Shown here in pieces: positions 45,275 to 49,658 of a DNA stretch of 62,623 nucleotides (position 1 is the first letter of the stretch; each line of letters starts with the position of its first letter). Source of the stretch: an archaeon (GTDB taxonomy: Archaea; Thermoplasmatota; Thermoplasmata; Methanomassiliicoccales; Methanomethylophilaceae); assembly GCA_024399215.1 (NCBI GenBank), contig JAKSHT010000002.1:1-62623 (forward strand), in the 5' to 3' direction. Position numbers and translations under genes: made by a program. Below the pieces are notes generated by a model. The model was not told the origin of the DNA. It ran no database searches and saw nothing but the letters and a program-made list of their open reading frames with translations.

Positions 45275-48016
45275 TTAGTCCCAAAATCTCTTATTCTTCG
45301 CAAATGTGACCTCAGCGCTAAGAACATCCATAAGAAACTCATCGTCGTCAGCATGTAAAGTTCTAAGAATCTTCGCAGCAGAATGTGGCCCAACACCTCT
45401 CGCAGCCAATACCATACACGCAAGTTTTCCATTTTCATTAACCAAACTGGCAATTTTTCTCATGTATGTAATCTGCCTCTTATCCGCTCCTGTGAGCTCT
45501 CTCCTTGTAAAGAGCTTAGCAAGATCTCTCTCATATTCCTTCAACATAGCAATCATCGTGCCCTCGCACCTTTTACAAACAAAGCGTTCAGGAACATCAC
45601 AAACTCTCATCCTCCACTGTAGGTGACAATTTAAACACAATGCATAAAGAATTTCATTTTCTAGTCTCTTTTTTAGTGATACAAGAATCGAATGTCTAGC
45701 ACGTGTTGGTTGCATAAGTTCTCTAGATTTTACAATTCCTTCCATTCCTATTGGAGACATCGATGTAACACAGACTCTAATAGAATGACTCGCGATGGCC
45801 GATACAACTCTCTCTGTGTTTATAATATCAAGATCTTCCCACAAGACTTTGTTAACCGCCTCATTATAAGCAGGGGTGTTTTTATGTATATCAAGCAACC
45901 TCTTAAAATTCATAAAACCGTAATCCGCATCTTTATCCACAATACCGAATTTTTTTGCTACATAGACGAATCTCCACTTCAAGAAAGTTGAATTACCGAT
46001 TGTAATTCTAACGATATCCTCTACTGTTCCAGGTTTTACTGATGTTATCACTTCAACAATTACTACCTCTGAAATATCTCTCGGCAGTTCTAGCATTATT
46101 CTGTATGGATCTATAGAAACTCCAACACTTTCTCCCATGCGTGCTGTCAGTAAAGCCGCGTATATTTTCCCCAATGTCTCATTAACACGAGTCCCAAAAC
46201 ACGCATTGATAACAACAATCTTTTCCCCAATTTCAATAGTAACCGTTTCATCTGTCGGAACAACAAGCTCTCCCTGTTTTATGATAAAATCTCGAACACA
46301 CCTTTTTGCATTTTCATCACCGGGATAGTCACTTAAATTAAGCAATCTTCTCAATTTCCCAACTTCCATAGCAATTTCAAACGGAACTGGAATATCTGAC
46401 CCTGTCCACGAAGGAACCGATCCAATCTCCTTCGCCTCCTCAACGAGTAATTCGCAATCATGAACTTCAATCACACGCCAGGTCCGCCCTTTCATAATAA
46501 ACATCGAACTACACTCGTTGATAAAAGCAGCAACAAAACTTTCGTCAAGCGTACCTATAATTCTTCTAGTAACTATATTCCTAATGACATACGTCCTTTC
46601 ATCCGGGATCATTGATATGTTGTTATAGAAATATTTCATCCCCTTTTTGGAGCGTCTAAACCCATCCTTATCCTCAAATATCATCTTAATAGACTTCAGT
46701 TGCTCCACAACATTATCCATTTCCTTCTTGTCAAGATTTCGAAATATGTGGGTTTCTTTGAATATCGAATAAGCCCGATCTCTAGTAATACCTCCTCTCA
46801 TAGTCATTGCCACAAGCTGATTTGCCACCACCGTCAATGGATTTTTTCTCCCAACCTTCTCCTCTAACTTTTTAATACCAGCCCTTCTAGCGATAACAAG
46901 TGCTTCTGTCACTTCATCTGGTGATGTTGCAATAATTTTCGCTTTAATGTCTTTACTAACACAATGTCCTGCACGACCTGCACGCTGTATCATTCTAGAA
47001 ACTTGTCTGGGAGAATTATATTGAATAACTAAATCCACAGTGCCAACATCGATTCCTAGCTCCAATGACGACGTACATATTATAGCCCTCAATTCTCCAC
47101 TTTTAAATTTATCCTCTACCTCTATCCTGTCCTCTCTCGAAAGAGACCCGTGATGAATATCAATAGAGAAACTTTCATCCAGCAAATGATATCTCGCAAT
47201 CATCCATTCTGCCGCTTCTCTAGTATTCACAAAAAGCAGTGTCGAATTTCCTTTTTCAACAAGTTCCCTGATTCTGCATACTGCCCCAAGAATATATGGC
47301 TCACATTGAAGTTTATCAAGAAGTTCACTATCACTACATGCATCCACACATTCCACTTCAATACTAAAATCTCTATAAGTGTCATATTTGCAAACTGTAA
47401 CTTGTCTCCGTGCACCCACAAGAAACCGTGCAACTTCATCCACATCGCTAACGGTGGCAGAAAGACCTATTCTTTGATATTCCCCCGCAAGATGAGAAAG
47501 ACGCTCCATAGCAACAGACATTTGTGCTCCTCGTTCAGAAAATGCCAACTCATGAATTTCATCAACAATAAACCACTCAACATGTCTCAAATGTTCCGAC
47601 AATCTCTTTCCTATAAGGAGGATTTGAAGTGTCTCAGGTGTAGTTATGAGTATCTCTGGGGGATGAAGCGACTGTCTATTCCGTTCAGATGGGGCGGTAT
47701 CTCCATGTCTTACATCAACTGAGACTTTAAGTGCTTCACCATAACTACGTATCCTTAGCAACACATCTCTGTTCAAAGATCTTAAAGGAGAAACATAAAT
47801 ACACCTTATTCCGGGTTTCCCCCTCGAACTAAGAATAGCATCAAAAATTGGAAGTACAGCAGCTTCCGTTTTCCCAGTGCCGGTAGGCGCCACAACAAGG
47901 ACATTAGCCCCCCCGACAATTTTCGGAATAGCGCCTGCTTGCGGCTCCGTAGGATCCGTTATTCCTCTACCCTCAAGTACAGAAGTAATCTCACGGGAAA
48001 GACCTTCAAACGGCAT
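45275..48016 (-). CDS. Lhr-like superfamily 2 helicase
   Basis: 913 residues. RecA-like domain 1 has Walker A APTGTGKTEAAVLP (from residue 43), VSPLRSLNRDV and VDEIHEL. Domain 2 has SLELGIDVGTVDLVIQ and MIQRAGRAGH. A winged helix and an Lhr-specific domain follow. Near the C-terminus CLNC...CKRC is a zinc finger present in part of the archaeal Lhr family. A 3'-5' DNA helicase implicated in repair and recombination restart. It runs against the surrounding plus-strand genes. Confidence 0.9.
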   Translation of the reverse strand: MPFEGLSREITSVLEGRGITDPTEPQAGAIPKIVGGANVLVVAPTGTGKTEAAVLPIFDAILSSRGKPGIRCIYVSPLRSLNRDVLLRIRSYGEALKVSVDVRHGDTAPSERNRQSLHPPEILITTPETLQILLIGKRLSEHLRHVEWFIVDEIHELAFSERGAQMSVAMERLSHLAGEYQRIGLSATVSDVDEVARFLVGARRQVTVCKYDTYRDFSIEVECVDACSDSELLDKLQCEPYILGAVCRIRELVEKGNSTLLFVNTREAAEWMIARYHLLDESFSIDIHHGSLSREDRIEVEDKFKSGELRAIICTSSLELGIDVGTVDLVIQYNSPRQVSRMIQRAGRAGHCVSKDIKAKIIATSPDEVTEALVIARRAGIKKLEEKVGRKNPLTVVANQLVAMTMRGGITRDRAYSIFKETHIFRNLDKKEMDNVVEQLKSIKMIFEDKDGFRRSKKGMKYFYNNISMIPDERTYVIRNIVTRRIIGTLDESFVAAFINECSSMFIMKGRTWRVIEVHDCELLVEEAKEIGSVPSWTGSDIPVPFEIAMEVGKLRRLLNLSDYPGDENAKRCVRDFIIKQGELVVPTDETVTIEIGEKIVVINACFGTRVNETLGKIYAALLTARMGESVGVSIDPYRIMLELPRDISEVVIVEVITSVKPGTVEDIVRITIGNSTFLKWRFVYVAKKFGIVDKDADYGFMNFKRLLDIHKNTPAYNEAVNKVLWEDLDIINTERVVSAIASHSIRVCVTSMSPIGMEGIVKSRELMQPTRARHSILVSLKKRLENEILYALCLNCHLQWRMRVCDVPERFVCKRCEGTMIAMLKEYERDLAKLFTRRELTGADKRQITYMRKIASLVNENGKLACMVLAARGVGPHSAAKILRTLHADDDEFLMDVLSAEVTFAKNKRFWD

Positions 48017-48050: not shown

Positions 48051-49658
48051 TCATTCCTCTTCGTCAACAATTTTATCGTCGCAGAGATTTTTCTTATACA
48101 TAGCCTTAATTTCAGCTATTTGGTCCTTGCCATCAGTTATATCTTTATTCTTGTACCTCAGAACTGTCCAACCACTACCCACAAGATCTTTATCATGCTC
48201 TTCCTCAGCGCCAGTTTCCGTAATAAAAACTGCAATTTTTGGCCTAACAAACGCAAATTGGACATGCGCATGACCATAGTCTTTCCTGTATCTCAACCCC
48301 TCTTTCCACATAGCTCTTCTGATAACTGCCTCTGGTGTCATCTCTAGATCTTCAACATTCTCCTCTACATCATCAGACATCGTTTTTTTTATTGTCACTT
48401 CACAATTAGGCTTCACAGCAGGTACCAACTGATCCGCATCATGCTTCTCAGCCACAGGCTCCTCAACCTTAGGCGCCGTGACATGGAGAAGGATCTCTGT
48501 TATATCCATAACCTTAACCTTTGATCCAATCTTTTTAGCACCTTGCCTCAGGTTGAGGACACAAAATGGACACGCTGTTGCAATAACTCCTGCACCCACT
48601 GCCTCAGCATCCTTGATCCTCTCCGCTGCAATATCCACCGCAAAATTATTAAACGCAGATTTGTAGCCACCACCCGCACCGCAACATCTCGAATTTTCTT
48701 TATTCCTCTCCATCTCAACAAAATCGATTCCTTTTATCTTCTTCAGAATACGACGGGGCTCCTCATAGACCTTTGAGTGCCTTCCAAGATGACATGGATC
48801 GTGATATGTTACCCTAGCTTTAAACTCATTATTAAGAGGGAGTCGTCTTTCACTGATAAGCTTGTCTACGTACTGTACAATGTGATAAACATTTTGTCCA
48901 GGTTTTCCATAATAATCTATATAATTGCTAGAAACAGTCTTGTAGCAGCCAGAGCAAGACATAACCATGTCTTTCGCTCCTAGCGCATCGGCTTTTGAGA
49001 CAACTTCTTTACTAGCTTCAAGAGAATAAGAAACGATACCCGTCCTCAGCAAAGGTGATGTACAACAAACCTCGCTCTCTCCCAAACAGTTTACCGTAAC
49101 TCCCGCCCGATCAAGAACCACAACCGATGCGCGAGGAATATCCTGCATCCTATACGATCCCGTGCATCCAGCGAAGAAGATCGCCTCCGGCGGCGTTGTT
49201 CTCTTAACATCTGCTGGCCACCACGCATCTCTCTTTTTCCGAGGCTCACTGTAAGGGTTCCCATTCAAGGCAATACTCCTTTCAAGCTTCCTATGAACTG
49301 GAAGGGGTGCCATCCCCTCATTTGTCATCCACTTTCTAATCTTTTCCCAGAGTTCGACAAGTTTAATCCCCGCATGACAAACTGCCTCACAATTTCCACA
49401 TCCCGTGCACTTATACACTGCATCAACAAACTCTGGACTGAGCCTCGCCCCTCTTCCTAGGACTTTGTCTATCAATCCAGTCCCGACTTTGTCCAATTGA
49501 TTAAGGTAGTAGATCTTTCCCCTCGCTGTTACCGACTCCCACGGGGTTTGTCTATGTGCCTCGCAAACCTCAATACAGTATCCGCACATCTGACATTGCG
49601 TCATCTCTTTCTGGATACGCGGAAGTTTTACAAACCTCGTTCCTTCCAGTTTTGTCAT
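48051..49658 (-). CDS. hdrD: CoB-CoM heterodisulfide reductase subunit D (HdrD-like) with a C-terminal Vsr-like domain
   Basis: 535 residues; HdrD is usually about 400. Two [4Fe-4S] motifs are Cys22/25/28/32 and Cys84/87/90/94. Two CCG domains: Cys165, Cys198-199, Cys235/238 and Cys289, Cys325-326, Cys363/366, with the spacing that binds noncubane clusters. HdrD reduces CoM-S-S-CoB in the last step of methanogenesis. After an acidic linker (393-440), residues 441-525 (TPEAVIRRAMWKEGLRYRKD, GWTVLRYKNKDI) resemble Vsr/DUF559 nucleases, but the catalytic Asp position is Gln467. No hdrE is adjacent, as in the HdrD/Fpo-like arrangement of Methanomassiliicoccales (inference). Confidence 0.85.
   Translation of the reverse strand: MTKLEGTRFVKLPRIQKEMTQCQMCGYCIEVCEAHRQTPWESVTARGKIYYLNQLDKVGTGLIDKVLGRGARLSPEFVDAVYKCTGCGNCEAVCHAGIKLVELWEKIRKWMTNEGMAPLPVHRKLERSIALNGNPYSEPRKKRDAWWPADVKRTTPPEAIFFAGCTGSYRMQDIPRASVVVLDRAGVTVNCLGESEVCCTSPLLRTGIVSYSLEASKEVVSKADALGAKDMVMSCSGCYKTVSSNYIDYYGKPGQNVYHIVQYVDKLISERRLPLNNEFKARVTYHDPCHLGRHSKVYEEPRRILKKIKGIDFVEMERNKENSRCCGAGGGYKSAFNNFAVDIAAERIKDAEAVGAGVIATACPFCVLNLRQGAKKIGSKVKVMDITEILLHVTAPKVEEPVAEKHDADQLVPAVKPNCEVTIKKTMSDDVEENVEDLEMTPEAVIRRAMWKEGLRYRKDYGHAHVQFAFVRPKIAVFITETGAEEEHDKDLVGSGWTVLRYKNKDITDGKDQIAEIKAMYKKNLCDDKIVDEEE

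Follow-up and report, generated by a model that had tools for sequence, protein, structure and literature searches.

The window analysed here is a stretch of 62,623 nucleotides from an archaeon of the Methanomethylophilaceae, a family of methanogens from the gut (assembly GCA_024399215.1, contig JAKSHT010000002.1, positions 1 to 62,623 of the forward strand). The genome is a metagenome-assembled genome (79% complete, 5.8% contamination), and a separate assembly, L032, has the same architecture of hdrD and its tail. The following features lie at the locus.

45275 to 48016, minus strand: lhr-type helicase gene, downstream of hdrD at a distance of 34 bp
48051 to 49658, minus strand: hdrD-type gene, an open reading frame (ORF) of 535 aa with ATG start and a degenerate Vsr domain at its C-terminus
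48483 to 49658, minus strand: HdrD core, residues 1-392, with two 4Fe-4S motifs and two CCG (non-cubane cluster) domains, cysteines complete
48345 to 48482, minus strand: acidic disordered linker, residues 393-438, net charge -8, pLDDT < 50 at residues 395-433
48078 to 48344, minus strand: catalytically dead Vsr/DUF559-like domain, residues 439-527, about 90 residues
48258 to 48260, minus strand: Gln467 codon, which hhalign aligns with the catalytic Asp (PD motif) of true Vsr
48054 to 48077, minus strand: acidic C-terminal end (...KIVDEEE), which is poly-Lys in nearly all relatives

By its motifs, the window protein is an HdrD-type CCG heterodisulfide reductase subunit with putative CoM-S-S-CoB reductase activity. 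Two N-terminal 4Fe-4S motifs (C22/25/28/32 and C84/87/90/94) and both CCG domains (C165/198/199/235/238 and C289/325/326/363/366) have all their cysteines, which are invariant in the HdrD core. Pfam detects CCG in two stretches (1.1e-33) and Fer4_8 (1.5e-8), and in the PDB the core is related to HdrB subunits and to an iron-sulfur-binding reductase. The NCBIfam matches of the protein include no dedicated HdrD model; the best equivalog match, TfrB, is below cut-off. HdrD of HdrDE from Methanosarcinales and HdrD of other Methanomassiliicoccales share this core with its two CCG domains. HdrD ORFs from Methanomassiliicoccales outside the Methanomethylophilaceae are mostly about 370-450 aa long, and the HdrDs examined outside the family stop shortly after the second CCG domain, whereas the window HdrD continues into a tail. 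A previous reading of the sequence alone had placed the end of the core near residue 392 and an additional domain behind an acidic linker. Both placements held: all cysteines lie before this point, the HdrDs from outside the family stop shortly behind it, and residues 439-527 fold separately behind a disordered linker in an AlphaFold2 model of the full-length protein. This model has a shallow alignment and a poor core (mean pLDDT 50.4) and was used for the linker and the separate domain only.

Searched alone, the tail gives matches below the curated cut-offs to Pfam Vsr (PF03852; E=9.1e-5, 22.7 bits, cut-off 27), to DUF559 (PF04480; E=5.5e-3, 17.0 bits, gathering score 20.6) and to NCBIfam vsr (TIGR00632; E=4.6e-4, 20.5 bits, cut-off 97.85). 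A profile of 24 rows (A1), built from tails collected in relatives, recovers true Vsr ORFs in genomes of the same family with matches up to 9e-9, and their Vsr identity is confirmed by Pfam. Aligned by hhalign to a profile of five true Vsr proteins of the same family, the tail profile reaches 98.9% probability (E=1.1e-17) over 85 columns, by which chance similarity of motifs is rejected. On these profile comparisons the tail domain shares ancestry with Vsr, unequivocally so against the Vsr of its own family, as the sequence-only reading had proposed for Vsr and DUF559 from the order of elements. Vsr (PDB 1cw0) and the tail have the order LR..LW..G.RYRK, ..F...KVAVF, GW.V.RF in common.

The tail shares this ancestry but is not a Vsr endonuclease: it stays below the curated cut-off and lacks the PD-motif Asp and the Trp-His-Gly (WHG) loop with the catalytic His. 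Gln467 aligns with the catalytic Asp and no E-x-K is present, both as claimed from the sequence alone, and the WHG loop of about 30 residues is deleted as well. In contrast to Vsr, the domain is fused C-terminally to other proteins and has no mismatch-repair context. DUF559 proteins and the NGO0050-type protein (PDB 3hrl) resemble the tail in their compact fold without the Vsr insert and differ from it in the D...E-x-K site, which the tail lacks. Across 133 domains the position of the catalytic Asp is occupied by Pro, Thr, Gln, Asp, Asn or His. No tail-type domain aligned retains the WHG loop. The Glu of Vsr helix 1 has a Glu counterpart in most copies. Residues R447, R448, A449, W451, R456, R458, Y461, G462, A469, L492, W497 and D509 are conserved among the 133 domains, most of them nearly invariant, and R448, Y461, G462 and T508-D509-G510 are lineage-specific invariant residues of the tail domain.

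As modelled, the tail domain has a PD-(D/E)XK-type fold with a Vsr-like alpha-beta core, so that the similarity anticipated for this fold was found by AlphaFold2 and Foldseek as well as by hhalign. The AlphaFold2 model of the domain (pLDDT 77.7, on an alignment of 3 rows) has the order a-b-b-a-b-a. In the PDB, Foldseek gives a probability of 1.00 to 9i05_Xl of the T. gondii mitoribosome and to 3hrl, and 0.96 to I-Bth0305I; Vsr 1cw0 is placed further down, and the E-values are 4e-3 or weaker, none below 1e-3. The best full-length structural match is 3hrl (TM 0.68/0.72). The viral library of Foldseek yields DUF559/Vsr phage proteins and homing nucleases. A viral origin of the domain was rejected, since no relatives were found in IMG/VR and the phage endonuclease matches were weak. 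RAP domains of FASTK and of apicomplexan mitoribosome proteins likewise have a Vsr-like PD-(D/E)XK fold and a C-terminal position on larger proteins, and several of them bind RNA without shown catalysis. The likeness of the tail to them is structural resemblance only: the Pfam RAP model matched none of 24 members at E<1, and RAP domains are eukaryotic, mitochondrial and found on different carriers.

The tail domain is under purifying selection. Between the window and its close relative (L032/G003), dN/dS is 0.034 for the core, 0.163 for the linker and 0.094 for the domain. Profile search finds the domain in 84 of 102 Methanomethylophilaceae genomes; 88 genomes are reported at E<=1e-3, four of which carry weak Vsr-type matches only and are left out of the 84. 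Outside the family there was no strong match in the order, in 300 genomes of the class or in 390 of the phylum. A frameshift or other artefact, named beforehand as what would undo the claim, is rejected by the identical architecture in L032, by the purifying selection and by the recurrence across the family. According to a quick HdrD tree with SH-aLRT support only, the tail was gained once, after the basal genera g7, g9 and g14 had split off, and was lost in g3, g12 and G002. The clade of the window has lost the poly-Lys end in which most domain copies terminate, and its domain is divergent and on a long branch (1.43). A literature search for HdrD fusions or C-terminal extensions in Methanomassiliicoccales found none.

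The domain recurs across the family, and HdrD is not its sole carrier. In about 60 genomes the domain forms the C-terminal part of membrane proteins, always behind a long flexible linker and usually with a poly-Lys end. Most of these carriers are a protein with six transmembrane segments (6-TM; L078-L097, L111-L159, with a coiled-coil version in L084), plus at least three other anchors: a signal plus one TM in L083, two TM in L154 and one TM in L159. Membrane anchors were fused independently, more than once. The 6-TM part has no Pfam or NCBIfam match above cut-off. It diverges greatly and fast between genera while the attached domain stays conserved, and the domain therefore looks like the working end of the protein. 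The linker of the 6-TM carriers is long and acidic (median 197 residues, net charge -17) and their end is Lys-rich. Judging by the positive residues that follow the last TM, the domain on membrane carriers is probably cytosolic. In genus g8, HdrD reaches 770-1090 aa with 4-7 dead Vsr domains in tandem (L091, L092, L161-L164).

Counted by hand, about 22 genomes have the HdrD form only, about 39 the membrane form only and about 23 both. The count includes several incomplete genomes as well as some fragments at contig edges that were assigned by tree position. The domains of HdrD and of membrane proteins form two old separate lineages (4 label changes versus about 44 in shuffles), and gene conversion between the carriers is not seen. 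An HdrD-specific function is weakened by the other carriers, and since genomes with HdrD only or membrane form only are common, a partnership of HdrD and the 6-TM protein is rejected as a requirement. Separately, the motif [KR][LMV].{0,2}SS[KR][ED]A is present in 31 of 61 membrane-type carriers (e.g. L078, L088), within their disordered linker, and in 0 of 38 HdrD carriers; among shuffles its frequency is 0.12%, the carrier sequences being related and not independent. In G013 the 6-TM protein (L171:2463-3065) ends after its TM part and lacks both the linker and the dead Vsr domain; HdrD keeps its tail there.

Across the order, each of 16 examined loci has an lhr-type helicase gene close to hdrD, usually adjoining it, also where hdrD has no tail. 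The 6-TM gene is flanked by a beta-CASP RNase gene and by a cluster of genes for a membrane protein, TFS and PCNA. Outside the 6-TM subclade this cluster is present without the 6-TM gene. A nucleic-acid function argued from neighbours (lhr and ftsJ; beta-CASP RNase, TFS and PCNA) was dropped, because the same neighbours are found where the domain is absent.

The loss of catalytic residues together with the conservation of the remainder points to binding, which supports the binding role that had been suggested as possible from the sequence alone. Membrane anchors have acquired the domain more than once and apparently display it in the cytosol, which argues for a role on the membrane side. Taken together, the domain is probably a binding module working near the membrane. 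Our tentative reading, to which we give somewhat less than an even chance, is that the Vsr domain without active site is a flexibly tethered binding module at the inner membrane face, with nucleic acid as its most likely ligand. The dead domain would bind instead of cutting, in the cytosol beside the inner membrane face; its ligand would be nucleoid DNA or RNA, and HdrD and the 6-TM protein would hold nucleic acid, or be held by it, at the membrane. The position is suggested by the membrane anchors among the other carriers, by the positive charges behind their last TM and by the proposal that HdrD, in Methanomassiliicoccales without HdrE, sits on the Fpo-like complex (PMC4153887, PMC10804542, PMC6147122). 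Nucleic acid is suggested by the DNA enzyme in the ancestry, by the RAP-like mitoribosomal protein as nearest structural match, by multiplied copies (avidity for a polymer) and by the poly-Lys ends. Dead or Vsr-like RAP domains bind RNA (PMC11879112, PMC12687428). Against nucleic acid stand the loss of poly-Lys in the window clade, the long branch of its domain and the absence from the tail domain of the helical insertions with which Vsr clamps DNA, which FASTK lacks as well (PMC12687428), and with a net charge of about zero the domain does not obviously bind nucleic acid. Against the membrane stands that the location of HdrD there is itself a proposal.

Nucleic acid as ligand is slightly favoured over protein docking, which we consider somewhat unlikely: here the domain would bind a specific protein, e.g. 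the Fpo-like complex or some other partner at the membrane, and bring HdrD to the membrane in place of the missing HdrE. The absence of HdrE from the order (PMC4153887, PMC10804542), the proposed coupling of HdrD to Fpo (PMC6147122), the near-zero charge and the lineage-specific invariant residues all fit docking. However, proteins already anchored in the membrane carry the domain too, HdrD works without it in the basal genera, in g3, g12 and G002 and in other families, and 4-7 tandem copies are unusual for a single partner. Self-association is improbable. Domains binding each other would cluster their carriers at the membrane, with acidic linkers and poly-Lys ends aiding condensation, which agrees with the tandem arrays, with the block-like charges of linker and end and with the frequent presence of both carriers in one genome (about 23 of 102), but not with the many genomes that have one form only. 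The domain might also be a drifting passenger that stems from a chance fusion of a vsr-like gene and is decaying without function; the HdrD tail was lost at least three times and the 6-TM protein lost it once (G013), and the domain evolves faster than the core, with its long branch in the window clade. This is quite improbable in view of its dN/dS, of residues invariant across deep divergences, of repeated independent fusions to membrane anchors and of the amplification in g8. An active nuclease with an unusual site, for which only the helix-1 Glu kept in most copies speaks, is hardly credible given the variable Asp position and the WHG loop deleted throughout.

A broader form of the membrane-side binding reading, which we regard as unlikely, is that a dead repair nuclease serves one archaeal family as a general tether on the membrane side, holding nucleoid, RNA or a hub protein, with HdrD as one carrier. 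For HdrD without HdrE in Methanomassiliicoccales, the route of the electrons and of the enzyme to the membrane has so far only been proposed. Were the broader form true, HdrD would be brought to the membrane in the absence of HdrE, and energy metabolism would be coupled to the chromosome or to translation. A module common to HdrD and integral membrane proteins is a concrete handle on the location and the partners of HdrD. The same module offers a clear prokaryotic example of a repair nuclease taken into use as a repeated, mobile, non-catalytic unit, comparable to the mitochondrial RAP domains.

Two further observations concern related loci. In other families of the order (L182, L183, L184, L187), the site of the 6-TM gene is taken by a gene for a conserved protein (..IWLNSSFRV..GYRSRVHPGWS..) about 120 aa long. 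At L168:1863-3410 an apparently intact Vsr and a C5 DNA methyltransferase form one in-frame fusion, and a similar partial form occurs in L169.
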